From Methanolobus sp. WCC4 (GTDB taxonomy: Archaea; Halobacteriota; Methanosarcinia; Methanosarcinales; Methanosarcinaceae), in the NCBI RefSeq assembly GCF_038022665.1, contig NZ_CP150629.1, positions 2,028,480 through 2,092,479 of the forward strand: a DNA stretch of 64,000 nt, given 5' to 3'. The position numbers were made by a program, and so were the translations under genes. Of the stretch, positions 23,973 to 48,695 are shown one piece after another. The notes beneath the pieces are model-generated. The model did not search any database. It had not been told where the DNA came from and saw nothing but the letters and a program-made list of their open reading frames with translations. Position 1 is the stretch's first letter, and each line of letters begins with the position of its first letter.

Positions 23973-25352
23973 TTAGAGAGCGTAGTTCTCTGGCTTGAAG
24001 ACTGGTACTTCTGTCTTGAACTTCTCCATGCATTCGCTCATGAATGTCTCGGACTCTGAGGTGATTGCGTCGAGTTCTGCGGTTGCCTTTGCGAGTGCAC
24101 CGAGCTCGAACTTTGTCATCTCAAGACCCTCTGCGTTGTTCAGAGTGTCACAGCATGCTACTGCAGCGTTCTTTGCACGGAGGAAGATGTCGTCTCCGTC
24201 CTTTACGATTGCTTCACCGACTGCGTATGCGTTGTCGTATGCAAGGACATATGACTGTGGGTCTCTGAATCTGTCGGAAGCCATGAGGAGGTCTCTGAGG
24301 ATCTTCTCGTTTCCTGACTTAAGAGCTGTGTTCATGAGAGCACAGTCGTAGTTGAGGGACTCGGACCAGCACTGTACTGATGTACCACCGAATTCTGCGT
24401 GGTATTCAACAGACTCGTTTGACCAGAGGTCACAGCACTGCATGATAAGGTTACCCATGACATCGGAGTGTGCACAGGTGGATGTCTTACCTTCAAAGGA
24501 CATTGGCATACCGGAGATTGCCTTTACGATGATGTTCTCGTATCCACAGTCCTTTCCTGGACCTACTGCGCCAGCCTCGTATGCTGCGAGTGATCTTGGA
24601 GCGGAGATTGCTCTTGCGAGGATTGCAAGGGTGTGTGCAAGGTTCTTGTCGAGGAGACCACCTGCAATGAACATTGCGGTGTTTGCCTGTGCACAGTCTG
24701 TGTCACCAGCAGCGGTTACGCCCTTCTGCTGAGCTACCTTTGCGATCTCCTGCCAGAGGTATTCCATGTCCATGGTACCGAGGCAGCCGATTGCGTAGAG
24801 CATACCTGGAACGTCGTTCCTGAGTACTGCGTAGTCGAAGATCTCCTTTCCACCCATTGATTCAATGGAGAGAAGGTCTGCGCCGCTTTCTGCGATCTGT
24901 TCGAAGGACTCCATGACCACTGTCATCTTGTCGCCTCTGAGCTCCATGAACTCTTTGTGCTCTCTGATGTCACCAGGGGTGTGTCTCAGTGCACATTTGA
25001 TTCCATATTCTTCATGGTACTCTTCCATGATGGTCTTCTGTGCGTGTGCTACAGCTGCTCCCCATGATGGGTTGTTGGTCATCTGCTGAACGTGCTCTGT
25101 CTCAAGTACTACGGATGGGAAACCGACCTGGACCATTCTAGCCATGATGTCTTTTGTGATTCTCTGGTACTCGTTTACGAGCTTCTCCATAGACTCACCA
25201 GCTTCTGGCCTTGGTGCGTAGTTAACTTCTGCAGTTGTGTATCCTGCTCCTATCTCGAGGTCAAGACCTGCTTTCACAGGTTTCTTTGCGTTACCGAAGA
25301 CCATCTCATCTGCTTCGGAATATGCCATTGATGTAAATCTGTTAATTGCCAT
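23973..25352 (-). CDS. mtaB: Methanol:corrinoid methyltransferase MtaB
   Basis: MtaB is a zinc enzyme that transfers the methyl group of methanol to the cobalt of MtaC, the first step of methanol methanogenesis. The 459-residue length is standard. The zinc ligands known from Methanosarcina barkeri align exactly: Glu164 (LSIESMGG), Cys220 (GDTDCAQA) and Cys269 (GPGKDCGYE). The ATG is preceded by AAGGTGATC. mtaC lies 11 bp upstream in the same operon and a strong hairpin ends the unit. MtaB does not use pyrrolysine, and no internal TAG is present. Confidence 0.97.
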   Translation of the reverse strand: MAINRFTSMAYSEADEMVFGNAKKPVKAGLDLEIGAGYTTAEVNYAPRPEAGESMEKLVNEYQRITKDIMARMVQVGFPSVVLETEHVQQMTNNPSWGAAVAHAQKTIMEEYHEEYGIKCALRHTPGDIREHKEFMELRGDKMTVVMESFEQIAESGADLLSIESMGGKEIFDYAVLRNDVPGMLYAIGCLGTMDMEYLWQEIAKVAQQKGVTAAGDTDCAQANTAMFIAGGLLDKNLAHTLAILARAISAPRSLAAYEAGAVGPGKDCGYENIIVKAISGMPMSFEGKTSTCAHSDVMGNLIMQCCDLWSNESVEYHAEFGGTSVQCWSESLNYDCALMNTALKSGNEKILRDLLMASDRFRDPQSYVLAYDNAYAVGEAIVKDGDDIFLRAKNAAVACCDTLNNAEGLEMTKFELGALAKATAELDAITSESETFMSECMEKFKTEVPVFKPENYAL

Positions 25353-25363
25353 TTGTGATCACC

Positions 25364-26128
25364 TTAGTGGTTGTGGAATTTCTCTCTCAGTGCTGCAATG
25401 TCTGCGCCTGCAATGATAGCGTCTGCCATCTTTGGTGCGTCTGCTGCTTCTTCTCCGTATACACCAAGTGAGTAGGTTGATACGAAGTCCTGGTTGACTG
25501 CTCCGCCACCACATGCGAATGGAAGCTCAAGTCCGCCTTCTACAAGAAGGTCGTTGACTTCCTTGAATGCGTACATGGTTGTTGTCATGAGTGCAGTTCC
25601 GGTCATCATGATTGGCTCGTATTCCTTGACAGCTGCGATTGCTTCTGCTGCTGGGACATCTCTTCCGAGGTCGATGACTTCATAGCCGTTTGCTCTGAGG
25701 AGAGCTGCTACGATTGACTTTCCGATGTCGTGTACGTCACCTTCTGCGACCATACAGACGACCTTGCCCTTTGGCTCTGGTGTGGAATCGCCCTGTGCCT
25801 TACAGAACTCGATACCCTCAAGCATTGCGTCTGCGGACATCATTACGTTTGGAAGGAAGATTACACCCTGGTCATAAAGGTCTGTTACTACCTTCATACC
25901 GACCATAAGTGCATCGTCGATGAGTGCGATTGGGTCCTTGCCTGCTTCGATAGCTGCTTCAAGACCTTCGATGACATCATCTTCTTCACCCTCGAAGATC
26001 GCTTCTGCGATTGCTCTGAATAACTCATCTTTTGGATAGAGTTCAGCTGCTGCTTCCTCAGGGGTCATTGATTTTTCCATTTTAACGTTGTATCTGATAA
26101 GGATACCTTCTTTGTCTACTATTAACAT
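25364..26128 (-). CDS. mtaC: Methanol corrinoid protein MtaC
   Basis: MtaC carries the corrinoid that accepts the methyl group from methanol via MtaB and passes it to coenzyme M via MtaA. The 254-residue protein has the helical B12-cap domain (residues about 25-120) and a Rossmann B12-binding domain with D-V-H-D-I-G (GDVHDIGKSI), whose His is the lower cobalt ligand, plus the later GGGAVNQDF loop. The start has GAAGGAGGT upstream. It is the first gene of the mtaC-mtaB operon. No mtaA lies in the window. Confidence 0.97.
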   Translation of the reverse strand: MLIVDKEGILIRYNVKMEKSMTPEEAAAELYPKDELFRAIAEAIFEGEEDDVIEGLEAAIEAGKDPIALIDDALMVGMKVVTDLYDQGVIFLPNVMMSADAMLEGIEFCKAQGDSTPEPKGKVVCMVAEGDVHDIGKSIVAALLRANGYEVIDLGRDVPAAEAIAAVKEYEPIMMTGTALMTTTMYAFKEVNDLLVEGGLELPFACGGGAVNQDFVSTYSLGVYGEEAADAPKMADAIIAGADIAALREKFHNH

Positions 26129-26767
26129 TCTATACCTCCTTCAATTTGGATAGTTTAGTTCTTTGAGCTTGGGTCAAGCTCAATCCAATCTACACAAAAA
26201 GGTTCTCTCGAACCTCAAAATACCCACTTTTTTCATGATATATAAAGGTTATCTTGCTAATGTACACATATATAAGTATTACTATTTGAGAAAAATCAAA
26301 CCAATATAAAAATTAAGATTTATATGCGTTATTGATAGTGTTTTTTTAATTCATGTGCATTTGTGTAATGCAGCAGCTACAAAATATAGGCAAATGTTAT
26401 TATATAATGAATCAAAAGATTATCTAAAATAACTATATAAAAAGAAATGTATTGCTCAGAATATACAATAGACAATAACATACAAAATAGTAAAAAAAGA
26501 CTACCGATGCATATCGATATTAAAAAATACAAAGAGAATAAAAAAAAGTTACCAGAAAAAAGACCATTACATTTAAATAGAACAACATTCCGGATTTTAG
26601 GTTTAGCAGACAGTAAATTCAGAGAGTAATTGATAAAATCACAATCCAGACACTCATTATGAATAAAAATGAAAAAATAACTAAATATAATAAAGTAGAC
26701 ATAAATTACTCAGGAATAAAGAGTAAGATATCTGGAAAAAAGCCACATCCTGACCAAAAGAGATATA
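26129..26767. promoter_or_regulatory. mtaC promoter and structured leader; otherwise empty AT-rich DNA
   Basis: On the minus strand a TATA-like TTTATATAT (about 26236-26246) would start transcription near 26220, giving a leader of about 90 nt. The rest, up to the sensor stop, is very AT-rich; the ORF at 26447-26629 on the plus strand (60 codons, Lys-rich) has no Shine-Dalgarno and is not supported. Confidence 0.5.
26165..26214 (-). promoter_or_regulatory. Leader element of mtaC: two hairpins flanking a conserved sequence
   Basis: GAGCTTG/CAAGCTC (26165-26171 and 26175-26181, 3-nt loop) and GGTTC/GAACC (26201-26205 and 26210-26214, 4-nt loop) flank the sequence at 26180-26202. The latter recurs at 30110-30132 with a single mismatch. 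The position in the predicted 5' leader suggests an RNA regulatory element for methanol genes; that function is inferred. Confidence 0.55.
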
Positions 26768-29700
26768 TTATACCATTTCTCTGCTAACGCATATCGTTAT
26801 TGGGTCATCATCCAGTTGCCCCGCAGAACAGCGCATCTCAACAGGTATGACCTCACTTTCTGAAGATTCAAAAGGAATAGTACAGACATGTGCCCTGCCT
26901 TCCAGTATATCCCTGATCTCAGCTGCAACCTCAAGAAGCATCTTCTGTGGATAGATATTGACGAGGTTCATTCCGATCAGGTCATTTTCCGAATATCCAA
27001 GCCGTTGGTATGAATAAGGATTCGCATAAAGTATACATCCATCACTATCCAGCATGAACACCATATCGTTCATTGACTCGAAAATTACCTTCAGGTTCCT
27101 GATATTGTTCTGTACATCGGCCTGCTCACGCATACGACCGATGACCGGACCCATCTGGGAAGCTATCGCTTCCAGGGAGTCCCTTACCTCAAAAGGCACT
27201 GCATAGGCACTATGGGATGATAACATCAGTATGGCTACAAGCTCCATACCATACCTGATAGGAATAAGTGCTGTGGCTTCAAGTCCTTCAAAGCTTAATT
27301 TCTCACCAGGAATCATCGATGTCAGTTCATAATACCGTGTATACAATGGATACTCTGTCTTGAGAAGGCGCGCATGGATGGACTTGCCACTGTAATGTCT
27401 TGCACCCTTTACAAAATCAGATGACAGGCCGGAGTGAGCTACTATGTTCATATCTCCGGTGGATCCATCTACCAGATAAAGTGCACCACAATCAAGATCA
27501 TCCATCTGAGTGGTGAATTCTACCAGCTGTGAGAACATATCACCGACATCACCAAGCGGACTGAAAAGCATACCCATATCAGAGCCTATCTGCATGAAGC
27601 TCTTCACATTCTTGCGCTCGGTTATGTCTACAATGATACCCTGGATATACTGGACATTTCCTTCTGCATCACGTTTGATGACCGATCTCTCATCAACCCA
27701 CCTGACCTCTCCTGCTTTTGTAAGGATACGATACTCAAAGGACAGATTTTCCTCACCTGAGAACATATCATATTCCATAGTGAGCCTTTCAACATCAGAG
27801 GGATGAACAATATCACCGTAGAGAACATCGCCTGACATCAGCGCATTGGCATCGTAACCGAACTGAGAGATATTCTCTGATACGAATTCGACCTTCCAGT
27901 CCTCATCAGGCCTCCAGAAGAAGACGACAGCAGGACTGCTCTTGATAACTGTTTCCAGTACCTTCTGAACTTCTATAAGATCTAGTAGTTCCTTTTCCTT
28001 CTGCTTCTGGTCGGTTATATCCCTGATAATAGCCATGATAGCCGGGCTGCCTTCATGATCGATTATAGAGGAGTTGATCTCAGTAGGAGTATTCAGTCCA
28101 TCCTTTGAGACCAGTTCTATCTCGTATTTCAGGGAAGCTTTACGGTTCTTTTCGAGACTGTTCCTGAATTTCGTCATCACAAGGCGTTTGTATTCAAGGG
28201 GCAGAAAATCCTCGAATGGCCTGTGAATTACCTCTGCTTTTGAGAAGCCTGTTATCTTACTGAACATCATATTGGCAAATACCAGCATCTCATCCTGCAC
28301 CACGATTATAGCATCATTACCTTCTTCTACAAGTGTGGAATATTTTTTCTCAGAAGCCTTGAGCTCTGCTTCAGCCTGCTTCCTTTCAGAGATGTCCCTG
28401 ACAGCCATCATAACAGAAGGTTTTTCCTCATGCATGATGAAAGAAAGACTAATCTCAGCAGGGAAGGCTCCTCCAGCTTTTTTCAGGAACTCGATCTCAT
28501 CGTTCCTGCGAATACTATGCCTGTCTTTCAGTACTTTCTTAATACGTTTACCGACCATCCGCTGATAGTCGATCGGTACATGATCAAGGAAATTCTGTTC
28601 AAACAATTCCTCCCTGGAATAACCGGTCAGTTCAGAGAATTTAGAATTTATGAATTTGAAAATATCGTCCTGCAGAATGATAATACCATCATTACCCTTC
28701 TCAACAAGTTTTGAGTATTTCTCTTCAGATGCCTTAAGCTCAGCTTCAGCCTGCTTCCTTTCAGAGATATCCCTGACAGCCATCATAACAGAGGGATGCT
28801 TTTCATAGGATACATAAGAAAGACTGATCTCGGCCGGGAAGGTATTCCCATCACTTTTCAGGAACTCTACCTCATCATTCCTTTTGATACTCCGTTTATC
28901 CTTCAGGACCTTCTTCAGCCTCTTTGATATCATTCGATAATATTCCAGAGGAACCGCTGAGAAGAATTCACTTTCCTGAAAATGATCGATCCCGTAACCG
29001 GTCATCTGGGAGAATTTCGAGTTTACAAAGCTCAGTTTTCCATCCTGAATGATAAGGATACCGTCATTGCCTTTCTCAACAAGTGTGGAATACTTTTCCT
29101 CAGATGCCTTGAGTTCAGCCTCGGCCAGTTTTCTGTCAGTTACATCCTCTATGGAAAGGAGGATACGTCGCTCAGAGCCAATACCGACATCAAGAGGTCT
29201 TGCAGTCAGACGCATTGTCCGTATACCAAGACCCTCAATAACACAATCTACCTCCTGGTATTCAAAGAAATAGTCCTCTTCAAGTCCTTTCTCCAGAAAA
29301 GCAGTCAATTCCTCTTTGTTCTCATTGCTGAGACTCAGAAAGTGTCGGCCTTCGGTGTTCTCCGGCTTTAGTTTGAAAAGATTATAGAAATATTCGTTAG
29401 CAGAAAATACATGGAACTTGCTATCGAGTATCAAAAGGGGATTCTGTATGCTGTCAACAATATTCCTGCAATAGTTCTTTTCTGAATCCCCGGAGACATT
29501 GGGACCAAATTCCCCTTTCAGGGAGAGGATCCCATGGAAAAGGTAGTTACCATCCTGCTTGACCCGGTAAGTATTTTCAACTACATCGCATGCCCTGCCA
29601 TCGGCAGAGATGATCCCATACTCTGCAGTAAAAAAAGAACTTTCATCCCTGTGATTGAATTCCAAGAAACTTTCTGTAAGCTCTTTGTTGTATGAAGGAT

Positions 29701-29935
29701 GTACTATATCCGAAAAAGTGATATTTCCAGAGATGAGATCATCAGGAGAATAGCCCAGAAGTGAGATATTATCAGAGACAGATATCACTGGCCTTGCAGC
29801 ACCATCGCCCCATAGAAAGGAAATGATAGGTACCGGGTTTGCGGACCTCATATCCCCCATACAGGACATATGATCTTTTTCTATCTGATCTTCAGAATTG
29901 ATGATACGACCACCTTCTGTGATATATTCTCTCAC
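26768..29935 (-). CDS. Multi-PAS/GAF sensor protein without kinase or other output domain
   Basis: A 1055-residue soluble protein. In order I see a PAS_3-type domain (SDNISLLGYSPDDLISGNIT), a second PAS (DSIQNPLLILDSKFHVFSAN), three closely related PAS-PAC units (about residues 280-640), a sixth PAS of the PAS_3 type with a PAC (WVDERSVIKRDAEGNVQYI), a GAF domain (about 790-920) and a seventh PAS at the C-terminus. The protein ends straight after it: no HisKA, HATPase, GGDEF or DNA-binding domain follows. Lack of output suggests it works through protein contacts, or has lost its kinase. It sits between mtaC2 and the mtaCB operon, so a methanol-related role is plausible. Confidence 0.8.
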   Translation of the reverse strand: MREYITEGGRIINSEDQIEKDHMSCMGDMRSANPVPIISFLWGDGAARPVISVSDNISLLGYSPDDLISGNITFSDIVHPSYNKELTESFLEFNHRDESSFFTAEYGIISADGRACDVVENTYRVKQDGNYLFHGILSLKGEFGPNVSGDSEKNYCRNIVDSIQNPLLILDSKFHVFSANEYFYNLFKLKPENTEGRHFLSLSNENKEELTAFLEKGLEEDYFFEYQEVDCVIEGLGIRTMRLTARPLDVGIGSERRILLSIEDVTDRKLAEAELKASEEKYSTLVEKGNDGILIIQDGKLSFVNSKFSQMTGYGIDHFQESEFFSAVPLEYYRMISKRLKKVLKDKRSIKRNDEVEFLKSDGNTFPAEISLSYVSYEKHPSVMMAVRDISERKQAEAELKASEEKYSKLVEKGNDGIIILQDDIFKFINSKFSELTGYSREELFEQNFLDHVPIDYQRMVGKRIKKVLKDRHSIRRNDEIEFLKKAGGAFPAEISLSFIMHEEKPSVMMAVRDISERKQAEAELKASEKKYSTLVEEGNDAIIVVQDEMLVFANMMFSKITGFSKAEVIHRPFEDFLPLEYKRLVMTKFRNSLEKNRKASLKYEIELVSKDGLNTPTEINSSIIDHEGSPAIMAIIRDITDQKQKEKELLDLIEVQKVLETVIKSSPAVVFFWRPDEDWKVEFVSENISQFGYDANALMSGDVLYGDIVHPSDVERLTMEYDMFSGEENLSFEYRILTKAGEVRWVDERSVIKRDAEGNVQYIQGIIVDITERKNVKSFMQIGSDMGMLFSPLGDVGDMFSQLVEFTTQMDDLDCGALYLVDGSTGDMNIVAHSGLSSDFVKGARHYSGKSIHARLLKTEYPLYTRYYELTSMIPGEKLSFEGLEATALIPIRYGMELVAILMLSSHSAYAVPFEVRDSLEAIASQMGPVIGRMREQADVQNNIRNLKVIFESMNDMVFMLDSDGCILYANPYSYQRLGYSENDLIGMNLVNIYPQKMLLEVAAEIRDILEGRAHVCTIPFESSESEVIPVEMRCSAGQLDDDPITICVSREMV
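28340..29120 (-). repeat. Internal about 375-bp duplication in the sensor gene
   Basis: The PAS-PAC units around 28350-28420 and 28725-28795 share long identical DNA stretches (for example CTTCAGCCTGCTTCCTTTCA in both), and a more diverged third copy begins near 29095. Spacing is about 375 bp or 125 codons. Confidence 0.7.
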
Positions 29936-30109
29936 GACATTATAGATGAAGTGTTTTTACTTATTCATATTAGATTAAAAGTTACAGTTATTATGCATTC
30001 TTGAAAAAACCACTTTTCTGAACTCTTTTCTTTTCCGGGAAAAAAGGAGATGTTAAATACATGTAAGATCCAACCATAATTTGGCTCCCGTCTGAATGTT
30101 GTACTTCCT

Positions 30110-30132
30110 TCAATCCAATCTACACAAGAAGG
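30110..30132. promoter_or_regulatory. Second copy of the mtaC leader element
   Basis: This 23-bp sequence matches 26180-26202 at 22 of 23 positions (single A/G difference). It lies 47 bp downstream of the mtaC2 stop and 175 bp upstream of the sensor start on the minus strand, so it could regulate the sensor or mark a region once shared with an mta operon. Confidence 0.55.
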
Positions 30133-30178
30133 GGCGTGTTTGGATGTGAGCCACCTGTTCCTTCCAATTGATCAAATG

Positions 30179-30943
30179 TCAATGTACGTGGAATTTCTCC
30201 CTTAGTTCCCCAATACCCTTGTTCTCGATTATCATGTCCGCTATCTTCGGAACAAAAGCAGCATCCTCACAGTATATCCCCAGTTCATACTTCATGACGA
30301 AATCCTGGGTCACAGCACCGCCACCACATACGAATGGTATATTTATGCCATTCTCAAGCAAACGGTCATTGACCTCCATAAATGAATACATTGTAGTTGT
30401 CATAAGGGAAGTGCCCGTAAGCATGATAGGCCTGTACTTAAGCACTGCCTGGATCACCTCGTCAATAGGAACATCGCTTCCAAGGTCAATGACCTCGTAT
30501 CCATTCGACCTCAGGAGTACGGTCAGTATCTTCTTCCCGATATCATGGATATCCCCTTCGACGACATAAGAGACAACAGTTCCCTTATATTCAGGGGCCT
30601 TTCCGGATATCTGTTTACAATATTCTATGCCATCACTCATCGCACGGGATGCTATGACAACATCCGGAAGGAACAGTACACCATCATCATACAACTGGGA
30701 GACAATATCCATACCTCTTATGAGGGCATCATCAATAAGGTCAAAAGGATCTTTCCCGGCATTTACCGCCTCTTTAAGTGCAATAATAACCTCATCCTCA
30801 TCGCCTTCATAGACAGACTCGACAATATTGCGCAGTAGTATATCAGAAGGGAAAAGTTCTCTTGCTATCTCGTCAGGTGTAAGTTCTCTTTCGAGTATGA
30901 CATTGTATCTGACAACGATACCTGTCGGATCTATATCCAGCAT
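30179..30943 (-). CDS. mtaC: Orphan methanol corrinoid protein MtaC paralogue
   Basis: A 254-residue paralogue of the MtaC at 25364-26128, same length and domain order, with the cobalt-ligand motif D-I-H-D-I-G (GDIHDIGKKI) and the GGGAVTQDF loop intact. GGAGGCTC precedes the ATG. It has no adjacent mtaB: the next gene is the PAS sensor. It could serve a distant MtaB, act as a spare corrinoid carrier, or have a sensory role with the PAS protein. The sequence shows no sign of decay. Confidence 0.9.
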   Translation of the reverse strand: MLDIDPTGIVVRYNVILERELTPDEIARELFPSDILLRNIVESVYEGDEDEVIIALKEAVNAGKDPFDLIDDALIRGMDIVSQLYDDGVLFLPDVVIASRAMSDGIEYCKQISGKAPEYKGTVVSYVVEGDIHDIGKKILTVLLRSNGYEVIDLGSDVPIDEVIQAVLKYRPIMLTGTSLMTTTMYSFMEVNDRLLENGINIPFVCGGGAVTQDFVMKYELGIYCEDAAFVPKIADMIIENKGIGELREKFHVH

Positions 30944-30986
30944 TGAGCCTCCGTTTTTGAGATTCGTTTTCTATAAGGTCGTACGT

Positions 30987-31019
30987 GCCTGAGTACAGGC
31001 AGCAATTTGCGATAGCAAA
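30987..31019 (-). promoter_or_regulatory. Paired hairpins in mtaC2 leader
   Basis: GCCTG/CAGGC (30987-30991 and 30996-31000) and TTTGC/GCAAA (31006-31010 and 31015-31019), each with a 4-nt loop, lie 44-76 nt upstream of the mtaC2 start. The arrangement resembles the two-hairpin leader of mtaC, although sequences differ. Confidence 0.4.
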
Positions 31020-31118
31020 CAGATAATGTATATACAAATTACTAACGGCTTATATTAACAGTAGATCTGATATGTAAAGGTAACGTCTAAAAAAGAATAG
31101 AAATTTTAAGGTAGAGAA

Positions 31119-31487
31119 CTATTTTGCGTCTTTATTTTCTTCCCAGATACCAAAGATGTTGCCTTCGGTATCCAGACATATAGCAAGATAACCCCATCCG
31201 GGAACAGGCATCTGGTTAAGGACCTTCCCGCCGGTTGCTTCTATCTTTTCAGCATACTCCTTTACAGAAGGAACCCCGATATAACTGGTCATACGCTGTT
31301 CCGGTTCTCCTCTAAGACCCATTCCACCCCCTATACCAGCTTCACCATCAAGACCGGTACTTTCAAAGAGATAGTAATCCATATCAGGCATTGGTTTCTC
31401 GAATTTCCAGCCAAAGAGGTCGCCATAGAATTTCTTTGAGCGCTCAACATCATCTGCAGGTATATCTATGTGAACAAAAGTTGCCAT
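31119..31487 (-). CDS. Glyoxalase/VOC family protein
   Basis: A 122-residue VOC-fold protein: FVHIDIPADDVERSKKFYGD then LFGWKFEKPMPDMDYYLF, and the C-terminal half with GYLAICLDTEGNIFGIWEEN. It resembles the CFP-30/YdeM group of VOC proteins of unknown substrate, and carries a His and Glu in the usual metal positions. Start chosen at the ATG with AGGGGTT upstream; an in-frame start 30 bp earlier is less likely. Confidence 0.85.
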   Translation of the reverse strand: MATFVHIDIPADDVERSKKFYGDLFGWKFEKPMPDMDYYLFESTGLDGEAGIGGGMGLRGEPEQRMTSYIGVPSVKEYAEKIEATGGKVLNQMPVPGWGYLAICLDTEGNIFGIWEENKDAK

Positions 31488-31582
31488 TGTATTAACCCCT
31501 TTTAGAATAAGGTCCATGATTATAAATGATCTTGTATCCGGTCACCAAATCCTTTATAGTATACTCTGCCGTTTCCCATTCA

Positions 31583-36093: not shown

Positions 36094-37370
36094 ATCAAAT
36101 TAGCTCATCTTTTTCTCCATTCTAATTTGACAAGCTTTTTCTCACACATAATTTGCAAATGAATTTGGATTTTTGACCTTGTTTTGCAAATTTGCAATCA
36201 GCATCAATTGATAAACAACAAAGTTCATGGTAACATAGAGTTCTCTGCTTCCTTTTCTGATTGATCTAACATCAAATTTGAGAATATGCTTCACATGCTT
36301 GTGAAACCTTTCACAATCTTGTCTTGTCCCTTTTTTCTTCTGGAATTCTGCATCCTCCATGTTCTGATTTCTTAGATACATTCCAACTTGCTTTGACCTT
36401 CCATGTTTGTAGAGGAACTTCAATTTTCTGTTAAGTGGAAAGTGGGGGTCTCCCCCACTTTTCCACATCTTGTTCATCCAATGATTGATTCTCTCTATTC
36501 TTCCTTCCTCACTGACAACAGCATCAGAAGGAAGGGATATTGTAGGATTCACATTAAGATCATTCCAGATATCTGCGTAGTTAGTGAATGAATCATATGC
36601 ACCATCCAAAGCATATGAATCAACTTCAGGATTCAATCTTTTCAAGAACTCAATATGCTGTTCCAGTTGTGGAGAATCATGTGCCAGTCCCTTTGTATAC
36701 GTCATGTACAATGGACAAGTTCCGATTAATGTGATATGCGCTTTATCCATTTTACAGTTATAATGCGGATTATAATCACTATGCTTGTCGTACCTAGAAG
36801 CTTCAATAGGTGTTGAATCTGTTTTTAGGTCCTTTGAAGATGTTAGATCTAGTATTCTCGAAGCTACTTTTTGCATTATTTCCCGGAATCCATTTTCTCC
36901 TAACCTGTATTTCACAAAGTGGTGAAGTGTTGCTCCAGTTGGCATTGAAATATCATCGTTCGTATTAACAAAACGAAGAAGCAGAGCTTCTTCATCTGTT
37001 AGCGATGAGATAGTTTTGTCAAATGAGAGTTTTCTGAAACACATGACAATGGTGAGTTTTATCATAGAAGAAACACGATACTTGAAATGCCAGTCTTTAT
37101 TGGAATAGTAGTTGTTTTCAACATGCTGTGCGATATCATCGATATTAAGAGAATGTAGCAACCGGCAAATTGACACATTATCTTTACCAACGTAGTTTCG
37201 AATGGAGTCCTCAAAGAGGACTCCTTTATACACAGTACAAATATCCTCCATGAGACTGGCCAAATTTATACTATATGAATCTATTGACCTAGCTACTGTT
37301 TTTTTTGGGGGGGGGGGCGAGGTCTTAAAGAAAAAAGAGGTAAGCTTTTAAGTCAAAATTCTAATTTGAT
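36094..37370 (-). mobile_element. Insertion sequence with DDE transposase
   Basis: Bounded by a 10-bp inverted repeat: ATCAAATTAG at 36094-36103 and CTAATTTGAT at 37361-37370, total about 1.28 kb. A further internal copy (CTAATTTGA, 36122-36130) lies near the left end. No target duplication is obvious, so the ends are provisional. A T8-G11 homopolymer run is at 37299-37317 between the gene and the right end. Confidence 0.65.
36142..37263 (-). CDS. DDE transposase
   Basis: A 373-residue transposase with an intact DDE triad layout: first Asp in LKTDSTPIEASRYDKHSDYN, second in SYALDGAYDSFTNYAD, Glu in RQDCERFHKHVKHILKFDVR. The order and the C-terminal YVTMNFVVYQLMLIANLQNK fit IS5/IS1182-like or related groups common in methanogens. 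The start is TTG at 37263 or ATG at 37251. It appears full length. The group assignment is uncertain. Confidence 0.85.
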   Translation of the reverse strand: MASLMEDICTVYKGVLFEDSIRNYVGKDNVSICRLLHSLNIDDIAQHVENNYYSNKDWHFKYRVSSMIKLTIVMCFRKLSFDKTISSLTDEEALLLRFVNTNDDISMPTGATLHHFVKYRLGENGFREIMQKVASRILDLTSSKDLKTDSTPIEASRYDKHSDYNPHYNCKMDKAHITLIGTCPLYMTYTKGLAHDSPQLEQHIEFLKRLNPEVDSYALDGAYDSFTNYADIWNDLNVNPTISLPSDAVVSEEGRIERINHWMNKMWKSGGDPHFPLNRKLKFLYKHGRSKQVGMYLRNQNMEDAEFQKKKGTRQDCERFHKHVKHILKFDVRSIRKGSRELYVTMNFVVYQLMLIANLQNKVKNPNSFANYV

Positions 37371-37653: not shown

Positions 37654-39765
37654 ATGTATGAACCCATCAGGAAACAAAAAGAGATATTAGAAGGGCTTAA
37701 GAAGGTCAATCCTGCTCTTGAGGTAAAATGGGATGAAAGGACCGGAAGTCCGAAAAGATTGAAAGGAATACTTACCAGTATCGGACAGCAGGACCCGGGC
37801 AGAGCTGCTTTCGACTTTATAGAAGCTAACAAGGGACTATTCTTATTAGATTCCGTTCAGAAGGAAATGGTCCTGAAAAGAATAGATACGGACAGGATAG
37901 GTGCAAAACATGTCCGTATGCAACAGGTCTACAAGGACCTGCCTGTATTCGGCAGCGAGCTCATTGTTCACATTGATGCCAACAGCAACATAAAGGGAAC
38001 CACTGGTAAACTGGTACCAGCTATCGATCTGCCTGATAAACCAAAGATAAGTGCTGAACAGGCGATGAAAGAGGTCCTTGGTGACCAGAAGGATAATGTT
38101 AAGAGCCATATCCATGCAGAGCCAAAACTCATGGTGCTGACCCAGTTCGTGGAAACACCGCATCTTGTCTGGCATGTGACCGTCAATGGTATGGACAAGA
38201 CACTTGCAGGTGATGATACACCTGCTAAATGGGAGTACTTTGTCGATGCACTGGATGGCAAGGTCCTCTGGAAGTTTAACAATGAACAGACACATACCAG
38301 CACCACGGGTTCAGGTATCGGAAGATACTCAGGAGCTGTTACTGTCAATACGGTACACGACCACGGTGCAGGAAATTACCTGCTGGAGGATCAGGGTGTC
38401 CCAACTTCTGCAAGGGTTGTCACACATGACGCAGACGGAGGATATCCACCTGCCGATGTTTCAGAGGATAATAATAACAACTGGTCAGCAGCAGCACAGG
38501 GACCGGATATCGACTGTCACCTCTACACGAGGATTGTCTTCGACTATTTCTTCACCGTACACGGACGTGACAGCTATGATGATGCCGGTGCCGACATGCA
38601 CATCTATGCGAACTGTGGTACCGACTGGAACAATGCATCCTGGAACGGCAGTTATGTCAAGATAGGAAACGGAGACGGAATACGCTACAGCCCTCTATGT
38701 GCACTTGACATCATTGCTCATGAGTGGACACATGCTGTGACCGAGTACACCGCCGGCCTTGTCTATAGCGGGGAATCGGGTGCCCTGAACGAATCCATGT
38801 CCGATGTATTCGGTTGCCTTATCGCAGGTAACTGGCTCTTCGGAGAGGATGCATGGTTGCTGGCTTCCGCACCTGGATCACGTAACCTTGAAGACCCGAC
38901 AAACGGAGGTCAGTATGACCCGACTGATCCTATAGACAGTGTTATTGCAGGTCATCAGCCGGACCATATGGACGATAAGTATACCGGTACAGCAGACTAT
39001 GGCGGAGTACACATAAACAGCGGTATAATGAACAAGGCCGCTTACCTTATCGCAACAGGTGGTACACACAGAGGTATCAGGATATGTGAAGGGCTAGGAA
39101 ACGATGTGCTTGGACTCCTGTATTACCAGGCGCTTACAACACACCTTGTCTCAAGTTCCGATTTCAGTGACATGAGAGATGCGGTACTGGATTCACTGGA
39201 TGACCTCTACTCGACCAACCCGCACTATTCCCGCTGGAGAGCAAGCATCATAAATGCATTTGCTGCTGTGGGTATCGGTACGGCAGTCACATGCCCGATA
39301 ACATGCTGGATAGCACCATTCATCTGTCCACCATCACCACATCTGGTATGCCCTCCATCACCTCGTTTCATGTGCCCGCCGGCACCGTATATCTGCCCGC
39401 CTGCACCTGACTTCGTGTGCCCACCATCTCCTATGATTGTATGTCCACCATCGCCATATGTTGCATGTCCACCGTCACCGGGGCTTTCCTGTCTGCCGGG
39501 ACCTGACCCACTGCCATATACACCTGAGATACGTGTGAGACATCCTGTCATCTCATTGAAGACGGACATAATAGAGATAGTCGGAATCGGTCCTGAGATC
39601 GCTGCACTCTTCAAGGCAAGGTCGATCTCGACCCTTGGTGAGTTCCTTAAGGCAACAGAGAACAAGAAGAACATCTCTGAACTTTCAGAGACCCTGGGCA
39701 TCTCAGCCACAAGGATCAACGACTGGAGAAAGAAGACACTGGTATTGCTTGGAGAAGTTAAGTGA
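37654..39765 (+). CDS. M4 (thermolysin-family) metallopeptidase with ten-cysteine Pro-rich repeat and helix-hairpin-helix tail
   Basis: A 703-residue zinc protease. Residues about 30-200 are FTP/PepSY-type propeptide. The catalytic domain has H356-E-W-T-H360, Glu380 (NESMSD) and His453 (GGVHINSG), matching thermolysin zinc ligands and the catalytic His. There is no signal peptide: it starts MYEPIRKQKEI. Residues 547-613 are a repeat of C-P-P-[SA]-P-x2-3 with ten Cys at 7-8 residue spacing. A DUF4332-like helix-hairpin-helix domain follows (IVGIGPEIAALFKARSIST). GGGGGAAG and TAGGGT precede the ATG. Its stop overlaps the GTG of the radical SAM gene. The Cys-rich segment is not part of known M4 enzymes that I recall. 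Confidence 0.9.
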   Translation: MYEPIRKQKEILEGLKKVNPALEVKWDERTGSPKRLKGILTSIGQQDPGRAAFDFIEANKGLFLLDSVQKEMVLKRIDTDRIGAKHVRMQQVYKDLPVFGSELIVHIDANSNIKGTTGKLVPAIDLPDKPKISAEQAMKEVLGDQKDNVKSHIHAEPKLMVLTQFVETPHLVWHVTVNGMDKTLAGDDTPAKWEYFVDALDGKVLWKFNNEQTHTSTTGSGIGRYSGAVTVNTVHDHGAGNYLLEDQGVPTSARVVTHDADGGYPPADVSEDNNNNWSAAAQGPDIDCHLYTRIVFDYFFTVHGRDSYDDAGADMHIYANCGTDWNNASWNGSYVKIGNGDGIRYSPLCALDIIAHEWTHAVTEYTAGLVYSGESGALNESMSDVFGCLIAGNWLFGEDAWLLASAPGSRNLEDPTNGGQYDPTDPIDSVIAGHQPDHMDDKYTGTADYGGVHINSGIMNKAAYLIATGGTHRGIRICEGLGNDVLGLLYYQALTTHLVSSSDFSDMRDAVLDSLDDLYSTNPHYSRWRASIINAFAAVGIGTAVTCPITCWIAPFICPPSPHLVCPPSPRFMCPPAPYICPPAPDFVCPPSPMIVCPPSPYVACPPSPGLSCLPGPDPLPYTPEIRVRHPVISLKTDIIEIVGIGPEIAALFKARSISTLGEFLKATENKKNISELSETLGISATRINDWRKKTLVLLGEVK
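39292..39492 (+). repeat. Codon-level repeat encoding the C-P-P-x-P cysteine array
   Basis: A 21-24 bp repeat (core TGYCCRCCR, followed by TCACC or GCACC) encodes Cys residues 547, 551, 558, 566, 574, 581, 589, 597, 605 and 613 of the protease. Seven units read C-P-P-[SA]-P; outer units are diverged (CPITC, CLPGP). Confidence 0.85.
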
Positions 39766-41111
39766 GCAACTTGAAAAACAGTCCGGGAGATGATCCCGGA
39801 AACTTTTCTATTTCAGATAGCTTTGAGCTTGTGCCATATTTCCCCTTCCGCATCAACAAAGAGGATGAACTATGGGTCATCAGGAACCCCCTGACCGGAC
39901 AGGAGAACGAACTGAACGAGGCCGCCTTCTGGATGCTCAAACTCTGCGACGGGTACAGGACACTTGATGAGATCATCAATGACATCTCCACCGCCTACCG
40001 GACCGACAGTGACACCGCATATGCCATGAGTGCACCCCTGCTTGAGAAACTCACCGGGGACGGAGTGCTATGGTGGCGCAAAGGAAGACTGAACTACTGG
40101 AAAGTACCTGCACCTGCCGGTGTTCTCTGGGACCTTACTTCAAGATGTAACCTCAGATGCAAGCACTGTGTCGTAAGTGCAGGAGAAGCAGGCAGGGATG
40201 AACTAAGCCTTGATGAATGCCACAGGCTGATAGACCAGTTCGCAGAGTTCGGTATCGGACAGCTTATCCTCAGCGGTGGTGAGCCAATGGTAAGAGAGGA
40301 CTTCTTCGATATTGCTGAATATGCTACTGAAAAAGGACTTCTGATACAGGTAGCCACCAACGGAACCCTGATAGATGAAAGTGCAGCACAGAGACTTGCC
40401 AGTATAGGAGCATCTACACAGGTGAGCTTCGATTCATCCGAGCCTGCCATCCATGATGATTTCAGGCAGCACTCTGGTTCGTGGCTGAGAACGAAGAAAG
40501 GTATAGAGCATCTGAAAAAGGCAGGTGTTCCTGTCACTCTAGCCGTGACAGTGACCACCATGAACATCGATGATGTCCCGCATATCTATGAAATGGCAAA
40601 GGACATGGGAGTGCAGACATTCCGCATACTGCCTTTTGTACCATTTGGACGTGGGAAGTACGCTGATGAACTGGAAGTATCGCCGGCGAGAATGGGTGAA
40701 CTGACAGAGTTCCTGCATTCTAAAAGGGATGAGGACGGTCTCAACATTGCACCAATGGAGTTCGAATGTACTTTCAGCCCTCCACCAGAACAGGGAATAG
40801 ATAATGATACCAGAATAGGATGTGACGGAGCCATATCATACTGTACTGTGAATTCAAGTGGAGAGGTACTTCCATGCAACTACTTCTCAGGAGCAGATGC
40901 AGAGAATATCAGGGAACATGATTTCAGATGGATATGGGACAATTCCCGTTTCCTCAACTATTTCAGGAGCCTGAAAGCAACTGACGTGAAGGGAAGCTGC
41001 CAGGAGTGTAGCTGGCTTCCTGTTTGCAGAGGAAGCTGTATTGCCGCCAACTTTGCACACGGGGACATGTTCCAGTCGAACTGTCACTGCTGGCTGGTTA
41101 ATGAAAAATGA
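39762..41111 (+). CDS. PqqD-fused radical SAM/SPASM peptide-modifying enzyme
   Basis: A 449-residue enzyme. Residues about 21-105 are a PqqD-like peptide-recognition domain (FELVPYFPFRINKEDELWVI, then LNEAAFWMLKLCDGYRTLDE). The radical SAM barrel has C129-x3-C133-x2-C136 (TSRCNLRCKHC) and the GGE motif (LILSGGEPMVRED). The C-terminal SPASM domain holds CTVNSSGEVLPCNYFSG and CQECSWLPVCRGSC. This layout is that of PqqE-like and RiPP maturases that cross-link or otherwise modify peptides. The GTG start overlaps the protease stop (GTGA), so the two are translationally coupled. No separate small precursor peptide is visible, which makes the protease tail the prime substrate candidate; that is inference. 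Confidence 0.9.
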   Translation: MSNLKNSPGDDPGNFSISDSFELVPYFPFRINKEDELWVIRNPLTGQENELNEAAFWMLKLCDGYRTLDEIINDISTAYRTDSDTAYAMSAPLLEKLTGDGVLWWRKGRLNYWKVPAPAGVLWDLTSRCNLRCKHCVVSAGEAGRDELSLDECHRLIDQFAEFGIGQLILSGGEPMVREDFFDIAEYATEKGLLIQVATNGTLIDESAAQRLASIGASTQVSFDSSEPAIHDDFRQHSGSWLRTKKGIEHLKKAGVPVTLAVTVTTMNIDDVPHIYEMAKDMGVQTFRILPFVPFGRGKYADELEVSPARMGELTEFLHSKRDEDGLNIAPMEFECTFSPPPEQGIDNDTRIGCDGAISYCTVNSSGEVLPCNYFSGADAENIREHDFRWIWDNSRFLNYFRSLKATDVKGSCQECSWLPVCRGSCIAANFAHGDMFQSNCHCWLVNEK

Positions 41112-47066: not shown

Positions 47067-48695
47067 TTATTTCTGTAAATAGCTGGACAGAGCAGCTGTG
47101 CTGCTAAAATAGTCACTTACAGGGATGGTGCAGGTGTTGTCATCGGAGTTGTACTCATAACCAGCAAGTGTAACACCGTTCGCTGAGAAGATGAAATCAC
47201 CTGTAGGATTCTTCAACTGGCTGGACTGGAATGTAGCAACACCGGTTGCATCTGTTACGGCAGATACAGTTTCTGATACAAGACCACTCCAGTCACCGGA
47301 AACGGTTGCACCGGGAACAGGGTTGCCGTCAGCATCGACTACAGTAGCCTTAGCAGTTGCATATGCGAAGACATGTTTGTTTGCCTTTACAGTAGAGGTG
47401 GGGTCTATAGTAAGCACACTGAAGTGCATGCTACTTACAGGATCCGTGACCGGAGTCTCTGTAGCAGGTTCTTCTGTAGCAGGAACCTCAGTAGCAGGCT
47501 CTTCTGTAGCAGGTTCCTCTGTTGCAGGTGCCTGGTCGAGATTTGATACTGCTGCAAGAGCATTCACAAGACCGTAGCCATAATAGTCATCCTTGCCTGC
47601 GGTACCAAAATCAGTAGCAGTGCTCTGGAGTCTTGCACGTACCTCTGCAGGGTCCCATGTTCCATCGTTGTCAAGGTCAAGATTGGTTCCTGAAACATCA
47701 GTGTTGAGCAGAAGGGCTACTACACCGGTCACATGAGGGGCGGCCATACTGGTACCACTATAAGAGCCATATGAAGATCCAGGCAATGTGGAATAGATAT
47801 ATCGTCCAGGGGCAGCCAATTCAATTTGAGGACCGTATGATGAAAAATATGCTATGGAATTACTTGATTCAATAGCTGCAACTGCAATCACAGAATCGTA
47901 ATCTGCAGGAGAGAGAACTGAAGGATCATCTTCATCACCTGTGTTGCCAGCTGATGCAATGACCACAGTGCCACTGTTATAGGCGTTATCACATGCCGCT
48001 TTAAGAGTGCTGGAATATGAGCCGCCTAAACTCATAGAAATTACGTCAACATCATTGTTCACAGCCCAGTTGATAGATGCAATAACATCACTCCATGAAC
48101 AATATCCTGCTGAGTTAGCTGCCTTGAGGGCATAGAAACCTACATCAGGAGAAACACCAATCACACCAATATCGTTGTCAATTCCAAGAACTGTACCGGC
48201 AACATGAGTACCATGGCCATTATCGTCCATTGGACTACTATCATCGTTAACATAGTCATACCCACCAAGGTAATTTGCTGCAAGGTCTGGGTGATTGTAG
48301 TCTACACCGGTATCGATAATAGCCACTTTAATTCCATTACCAGTAAACCCTAGAGCATGTACCTCAGGAGCATTTACCCTTTCAATTCCCCAAGGAATAG
48401 TCTCTCCTGTTATCTGGGCAATTCCATCCGGTTCGACAAGATCGATATTCGGATTCTTAGAAAGAGCATCGATGGCCTTCAGAGGAAGTTCAGCTGCAAT
48501 AGCAGGAACAACATCATATTCGTACTTTATCTCTCCACCATTTGCCTTCACAAGCTGGGCATCGGGTTTATTCTTGAATTGGATAAGAACAGGAACTTTT
48601 TCATTATCGGACGATACAGCACTTGCCGGTGCCACCATAAAAGATAGCAGAATCGACAAGATCATTAATAACGTAATTGGTACTTTATTCATCAT
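47067..48695 (-). CDS. Secreted subtilisin-like serine protease (S8)
   Basis: A 542-residue exported protease: signal peptide (ITLLMILSILLSFMVAPASA), I9 inhibitor propeptide (about 30-95), and an S8 domain with Asp in VAIIDTGVDYNHPD, His in DNGHGTHVAGT and Ser in GTSMAAPHVTG. A linker of repeated A-T-E-E-P units precedes a C-terminal Big-1-like domain (ATVVDADGNPVPGATVSGDW). GGTGAT precedes the start codons at 48695 and 48692. No membrane anchor is visible; it is likely released or bound to the envelope. Confidence 0.95.
   Translation of the reverse strand: MMNKVPITLLMILSILLSFMVAPASAVSSDNEKVPVLIQFKNKPDAQLVKANGGEIKYEYDVVPAIAAELPLKAIDALSKNPNIDLVEPDGIAQITGETIPWGIERVNAPEVHALGFTGNGIKVAIIDTGVDYNHPDLAANYLGGYDYVNDDSSPMDDNGHGTHVAGTVLGIDNDIGVIGVSPDVGFYALKAANSAGYCSWSDVIASINWAVNNDVDVISMSLGGSYSSTLKAACDNAYNSGTVVIASAGNTGDEDDPSVLSPADYDSVIAVAAIESSNSIAYFSSYGPQIELAAPGRYIYSTLPGSSYGSYSGTSMAAPHVTGVVALLLNTDVSGTNLDLDNDGTWDPAEVRARLQSTATDFGTAGKDDYYGYGLVNALAAVSNLDQAPATEEPATEEPATEVPATEEPATETPVTDPVSSMHFSVLTIDPTSTVKANKHVFAYATAKATVVDADGNPVPGATVSGDWSGLVSETVSAVTDATGVATFQSSQLKNPTGDFIFSANGVTLAGYEYNSDDNTCTIPVSDYFSSTAALSSYLQK

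Follow-up and report, generated by a model that had tools for sequence, protein, structure and literature searches.

The thermolysin-family (M4) protease of Methanolobus sp. WCC4 ends in a Cys-repeat tail, and its gene is paired with a neighboring gene for a PqqD-radical SAM-SPASM enzyme. The two genes are inherited together, the tail motif is conserved, and such tails recur on three unrelated protease-like proteins. As a whole, these observations are best explained if the Cys repeat serves as a tail for post-translational modification and is stitched by the neighboring enzyme, and we put the probability of this reading at about 0.7. The wider proposal is an archaeal protease-specific system, in which radical SAM enzymes were paired at least three times with unrelated proteases (M4, S8, and caspase-like) and write an unnested sactionine ladder into their tails; for this we see the odds as even.

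The tailed protease and its partner gene

The features of the pair are given by their positions in the window, which is the whole 64,000-nucleotide stretch of DNA that was analyzed.

37654..39765, + strand: M4 (thermolysin-family) protease with Cys-repeat tail; ORF of 703 aa without signal peptide
37864..38007, + strand: FTP propeptide motif of the protease (aa 71-118; Pfam PF07504)
38044..38268, + strand: PepSY propeptide domain of the protease (aa 131-205; Pfam PF03413)
38305..39276, + strand: M4 catalytic and helical domains (aa 218-541; Pfam PF01447, PF02868)
39292..39504, + strand: Cys-repeat tail (aa 547-617), proposed radical SAM substrate; 10 Cys, 9 x C-x2-[SAG]-P
39583..39732, + strand: helix-hairpin-helix-like domain C-terminal of the tail (Pfam matches below cut-off: DUF4332, E=0.0016; HHH_5, E=0.012)
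39762..39765, + strand: GTGA, shared by the TGA stop of the protease and the GTG inferred as start codon of the radical SAM gene
39762..41111, + strand: PqqD-radical SAM-SPASM enzyme of 449 aa, proposed tail maturase (Pfam, NCBIfam, invariant Cys)
39909..40067, + strand: PqqD-like (RRE) peptide-binding domain (enzyme aa 50-102; Pfam PF05402, E=1.1e-6)
40134..40595, + strand: radical SAM domain, C129-x3-C133-x2-C136 (Pfam PF04055, E=2.6e-26; Cys invariant)
40821..41090, + strand: SPASM region with seven invariant Cys (C354, C372, C413-x2-C416-x5-C422-x3-C426, C443); SPASM domain proper at enzyme aa 354-416 (Pfam PF13186, E=1.2e-7)

The M4 domains were found together with the HExxH motif (HEWTH, residues 356-360) and the downstream Glu (E380), which places the protein among the M4 peptidases. 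It shares with the thermolysin family the FTP, PepSY, M4, and M4_C domains as well as these residues, but differs in the lack of a signal peptide and in the additional Cys tail and C-terminal helical domain. The typical M4 secretion signal was absent: the hydropathy of the N-terminal 60 residues peaked at 0.15, compared with 2.73 by the same measure in a secreted-type subtilase encoded at 47067-48695. A hidden signal is impossible as well, the Met being only one codon from the opening of the frame. Four tailed proteins were tested, and none had a hydrophobic N-terminal segment (top 15-residue means of 0.15 to 0.99). The structure prediction of protease and enzyme was poor, with mean pLDDT values of 42.5 and 49.1. 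The subtilase used for comparison, which has a (TEEPA)n linker and whose N-terminus is signal-like, is unrelated to the Cys-tail system. A DDE transposase gene (36142-37263; Pfam DDE_Tnp_1) adjoins the protease gene, with an 11-base G run beyond the start side.

The ten Cys were located at residues 547, 551, 558, 566, 574, 581, 589, 597, 605, and 613, with spacings of 4, 7, 8, 8, 7, 8, 8, 8, and 8 residues; they correspond exactly to bases 39292-39492, as a preliminary description of this DNA had reported. The same description held that each Cys is followed by Pro, which was true for eight of the ten and not for C551 (CWIAP) and C613 (CLPGP). CPP[SA]P accounted for 7 of the 10 Cys, and the looser motif C-x2-[SAG]-P for 9 of them (all but C547). 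In 100,000 shuffles of the 71 tail residues the maximum was five motifs, compared with the nine observed, and of the window's 278 open frames with 67 aa or more the runner-up had two. The Cys density alone was unremarkable. Some other window frames have as many Cys or more, up to 13 per 67 residues, so it is the motif, not the density, that stands out. The loci examined contain 3042 open frames with 70 aa or more. A density of at least four C-x2-[SAG]-(x)-P motifs per 70 aa was reached by 79 of them, which came from 79 loci, many of these overlapping and all belonging to the three gene pairs. The tail motif is far from chance.

All Cys were kept in 14 of the 14 tail-bearing homologues, and unconserved Cys positions, which had been named beforehand as the refuting observation, were thus not found. 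The repeat number varied from 10 to 12 Cys (10 in 11 of the Methanolobus tails, 11 in two, and 12 in one). In the 11 ungapped tails all Cys columns were invariant, with more than one codon in 8/10 of them; the 25 invariant Pro columns all used more than one codon (25/25), and the +3 position of the nine motif units was always Ser, Ala, or Gly. Since the codons differ at these conserved positions, the tail pattern is held by selection. Tail and catalytic domain were conserved to about the same degree (identities of 0.83-0.94 and 0.83-0.95, respectively). C547 stands outside the motif, and its Cys-Pro also occurs in a tail-less protein from Calothrix, so that this residue may not be part of the Cys array. 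Direct DNA repeats were absent in 39200-39800, which rules out a recent DNA duplication as the source of the window repeat and indicates that the repeat is old.

The view that the tail lies outside the M4 fold was supported: Pfam M4_C stops at residue 541, and the Calothrix M4 protein, which is the closest tail-less homologue (61% identical over residues 1-548), has no such tail. The C-terminus of this Calothrix protein (gene at L023, 6001-8286) consists of a different, near-identical tandem repeat unrelated to the Cys tail.

The partner belongs to the PqqD-radical SAM-SPASM proteins, an enzyme type that modifies Cys peptides. No peptide-maturase family exceeded its curated NCBIfam cut-off among the 25 matches listed for the window enzyme; the top match was the heme synthase AhbD (TIGR04545), with 232 of the required 500 bits, and the PapB-type ranthipeptide maturase (NF047865) reached 96 of 340 bits. 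When a profile of the enzyme family was compared with solved structures, the best match was the sactisynthase SkfB (E=2.3e-25), followed by PqqE and then by 5wgg, which we take to be CteB. The 5wgg match begins at profile position 69, within the PqqD-like region. Modification had been mentioned earlier as one option for the repeat, with no connection to this gene being made; the adjoining, co-inherited radical SAM gene makes it the favored one.

Co-inheritance and recurrence of the tail

Both genes were present and adjacent in 14 of the 27 Methanolobus genomes and both were missing from the other 13, a count that does not amount to 27 independent trials, as these genomes are related. GTGA at the protease stop was found in 14/14 genomes with the pair. 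In the family Methanosarcinaceae (111 genomes), 16 enzymes matched at E<=1e-90, and 16/16 were located beside a tailed protease (14 M4, 2 S8). Including a more distant group described below, an adjoining tailed protein was present for 19/19 enzymes of the two groups found. Tail-less homologues (the Calothrix M4, the S8 relatives of G159 and G316, and a caspase-like protein of G800) came from genomes without an enzyme match; for the Calothrix genome, the search was run at 1e-40.

The S8 (subtilisin-family) pair came to light when 392 archaeal genomes were searched at the protein level, the tail region giving a match to an S8 protein in a member of the Methanosarcinaceae (G384). This tail, CPPAPKICPPGPIRC and so on, continues past the contig end; another contig opens with the remainder of a matching tail, and a PqqD-radical SAM-SPASM gene follows about 60 bases past the last sense codon. 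In G417 the pair was intact on a single contig. The two S8 proteins were 92% identical over 516 residues, and yet their repeats differed, being CLRAPQII and CLRGPIQ (CLRGP/CLRAP) in G417 versus CPPAP/CPPGP in G384. As judged by sequence, this is the most telling comparison: because the tails differ on near-identical S8 proteins, what is kept is the Cys, a small residue three positions on (+3), and the Pro directly behind it (+4). The S8 tails, unlike the window repeat, look recently homogenised. The S8-type enzyme contained a PqqD/RRE domain (E=2.1e-5) and was 40% identical to the window enzyme over nearly the full length. S8 relatives with 41% identity in G316 and G159 ended without a tail. 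Both genomes were included in the family-wide search, and neither is among its 16 listed matches at 1e-90.

The next-best enzyme in the phylum was that of G025, with 273 bits compared with at least 739 for the family. Its gene comes directly after a gene with caspase-like His-Gly and Ser-Cys motifs, the product of which carries a tail of CRTGLPDMTLH repeats whose last units are CNAGP and CSAGP. With the G025 enzyme as query, two more close relatives of about 60% identity (G035 and G423) were found in 158 genomes of the order, and the other three matches were Methanolobus enzymes of the first group. All three members of the distant group (3/3) were located beside a tailed caspase-like protein. 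Two relatives, in G800 and G801, cover the caspase-like catalytic part only, as 238-residue frames without a tail, and G800 had no enzyme match in the search of the 158 genomes. The class is assigned from the H-x-x-H-G and S-C-x-S-A motifs, which we take to be clan CD-like; sequence searches of Pfam, NCBIfam, and PDB gave nothing usable for this label, and the protein could be a non-peptidase. In the member of this enzyme group that was scanned, Pfam did not detect a PqqD domain. A small gene overlaps the caspase-like gene directly upstream (L118, 6565-7269; L133, 6253-6531; L134, 4549-5163). It encodes a transthyretin-like N-terminal part (L118, L134) and a shared YLVVGTESYTP-like C-terminal part and may represent a third component.

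The core common to all tails was Cys-x2-[Ser/Ala/Gly]-Pro, often with one additional residue ahead of the Pro in the caspase-like type. Cys-Pro-Pro is just one version of the general motif. The preliminary description had suggested a rigid Pro-rich rod. A poly-Pro rod as the point of the repeat was rejected, since S8 (CLRGP) and caspase-like (CRTGLP) tails can lack Pro-Pro and still keep the Cys, a small residue at position +3, and a Pro one or two places further on (+4 or +5).

When 25 radical SAM proteins were placed in a tree, all tail-linked enzymes grouped together with an enzyme from G060 (support 0.989), the M4-linked and S8-linked enzymes being sisters (0.979) and the caspase-linked ones joining G060 (0.918); the sample was small, and the remaining proteins were those at hand. 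A profile comparison of the N-terminal domains gave probabilities of 96.8% for M4-S8, 97.2% for caspase-G060, and 14% for M4-caspase. At the G060 locus (L119, 1553-6755), the enzyme gene, which also encodes a PqqD-like radical SAM-SPASM protein, is flanked by the genes of an M43 metalloprotease on one side and a papain-like (C1) protease on the other. A Cys tail was looked for at this locus and not found, and 0/3 other family members had the enzyme at E<=1e-50, so G060 was rejected as a fourth case; an enzyme beside untailed peptidases counts against a strict one-to-one rule. Tailed neighbors were also absent around weaker enzymes (273 bits or less) in G091, G189, G345, and G283.

A DNA pattern for CPPxP repeats matched 19 of the 392 genomes of the phylum, namely 13 Methanolobus, G384, and five with a single match (G177, G201, G316, G348, G349); the G177 match, the only one of these five that was read, was an antisense frame of a Gly-rich gene. 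The reversed pattern, used as a control, gave 8 matches in 7 genomes. Bacterial sampling comprised a pattern-based contig scan with the M4 protein, 339 cyanobacterial genomes, one Bacteroidales genome, and plasmid records. The likeness of about 61% between the Calothrix and archaeal M4 proteins over residues 1-548 suggests a transfer between domains. A cyanobacterial origin of the pair was rejected, as the enzyme occurred in 0/339 cyanobacterial genomes at E<=1e-60 in a search run without a positive control. Viral contigs contained no homologue. Plasmids gave 158 records matching the enzyme, of which the 15 listed had 25-32% identity and mostly names of other families, and 13 records for S8 relatives; the Calothrix and Nonomuraea S8 frames ended without a Cys tail, and a Paenibacillus gene is known from the annotation table alone. 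No plasmid matched the caspase-like protein.

Proposed stitching of the tail and competing explanations

We propose that the enzyme, co-translated with the protease, docks on it through the PqqD-like domain and joins the thiols of the tail Cys to nearby carbons. The gene pairing and the conserved motif argue strongly that the radical SAM enzyme takes the tail as its substrate, and thioether chemistry in the tail is probable. The most likely bond would link each Cys(i) with Calpha of the Ser, Ala, or Gly at i+3; by analogy with a known peptide this placement of the acceptor is plausible, though held tentatively. The C-x2-[SAG]-P units would then become a string of unnested four-residue thioether rings, each fixed by the following Pro. 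Whether the stitched tail is a permanent linker and not a released product we consider an even bet, with staying in place as the most likely fate: it would form a rigid linker from the protease to the C-terminal domain that resists cutting by its own protease, independent of the redox state. Disulfides, which had been suggested earlier for these Cys, are unlikely. None of the proteins tested had a signal peptide, the cytoplasm of methanogens is reducing, and such a setting, as it appears to apply here, disfavors them.

A self-processing precursor is the strongest competitor, though an unlikely one. Here the protease part would be an oversized leader; the enzyme would modify the repeats, the protease would cut itself, and a multi-ring peptide would be released. 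The rapid change of the S8 tail sequence fits this scheme, as does a weak match of the S8 protein to QhpE (E=1.4e-14, below cut-off). As described in the available parts of the sources, leader proteases are often encoded in RiPP clusters, several of them being S8 enzymes (PMC10885120), and in the quinohemoprotein system the same polypeptide is acted on by a radical SAM enzyme, QhpD, and by QhpE, a subtilisin-like protease (PMC7876137). On the other hand, the Methanolobus tail was conserved as strongly as the catalytic domain, the M4 and S8 proteins continue for a further 70-90 residues past the tail, and the regions read around the M4 and S8 pairs contained no recognized exporter. We rank the linker above the self-processing precursor because the Methanolobus tail is conserved like an enzyme, a conserved domain follows it, and an exporter was not recognized beside these pairs. 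In the G025 region, an ABC-transporter ATPase-like frame (L118, 1749-2759), labeled by eye, is separated from the enzyme gene by about 1.4 kb.

Proteases commonly contain Pro-rich linkers, and the repeat might be an ordinary Pro-rich spacer, with its Cys disulfide-bonded or free and the enzyme co-expressed by coincidence or modifying the protease elsewhere. This is improbable, since the three unrelated protease-like partners have only the Cys tail and the enzyme in common and a signal peptide was absent in all tailed proteins tested.

Slightly less probable still is that the repeat binds metal or heme and the enzyme acts on heme or another target: Cys-Pro is a known heme-binding motif, found in heme-regulatory motifs, and AhbD heme b synthase was the top NCBIfam match, but Cys-Pro is missing from most G417 units (CLRGP) and from the caspase-like repeats (CRTGLP), the AhbD score fell below half of its cut-off, and each of the 27 Methanolobus genomes holds another radical SAM relative of 348-414 residues that matches only from about position 110 on. 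AhbD is likewise an archaeal SPASM enzyme, but its Cys spacing is CX2CX5CX2C compared with CX2CX5CX3C in the window enzyme, and the available text of the AhbD source never uses the word PqqD (PMC10452713).

Relation to known systems

The chain of four-residue rings is proposed because the tails repeat the geometry of streptosactin, with Cys followed by a small residue at +3. According to the accessible text, a SPASM sactisynthase forms unnested S-Calpha bonds between Cys25 and Ser28 and between Cys31 and Gly34 of streptosactin (PMC8172795; one sentence there prints Cys15 in place of Cys25). The streptosactin/GggB system of Streptococcus thus resembles the present one in its SPASM radical SAM enzyme and in the Cys to Ser/Gly i+3 arrangement, which corresponds to the C-x2-[SAG] repeated here. 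It differs in that the substrate, as far as that text describes it, is a short precursor peptide whose 14-residue product contains two rings; in the present case a 700-residue protease carries up to 12 Cys in its tail, and the bond is a predicted one.

Compared with sactipeptide systems of the streptosactin type, a candidate SPASM maturase beside the gene of the putative substrate was found (Pfam Radical_SAM and SPASM, adjacent genes), as was a PqqD/RRE domain on this enzyme for the M4 and S8 types. A Cys with an acceptor at fixed distance, C-x2-[SAG], was present for 9/10 window Cys and in all three tail types, as a match of sequence. A small dedicated leader/core precursor was not found, the repeat being the tail of a 703-aa protease. 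QhpD/QhpE is similar in having a radical SAM enzyme, several thioethers in one polypeptide, and a subtilisin-like protease in the operon, as reported in the accessible part of PMC7876137. It differs in its Cys-to-Asp/Glu bonds and its separate small subunit, with protease and substrate being separate proteins.

The pairing of a protease tail with a radical SAM enzyme was not found described in the open-access literature (titles and starts of abstracts), a scope that leaves out most subscription journals. To our knowledge, peptide-crosslinking SPASM enzymes come mainly from small antimicrobial or signaling peptides and one redox enzyme. If the proposal is true, thioether armor would be placed on an active intracellular enzyme instead of forming a peptide product, and the recurrence on three unrelated protease-like proteins would point to a general use for a tail that resists cutting and reduction. 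The motif C-x2-[SAG]-P is defined and testable, with natural variants of 10, 11, and 12 Cys and two different tails on near-identical S8 proteins. Moreover, enzymes for which no curated NCBIfam model exceeded its cut-off, among the matches listed, would gain a candidate substrate in culturable methanogens. Elsewhere in the window, 23973-31517 contains what we take to be an MtaB-like methanol methyltransferase gene and two corrinoid protein genes, consistent with a methylotrophic methanogen.
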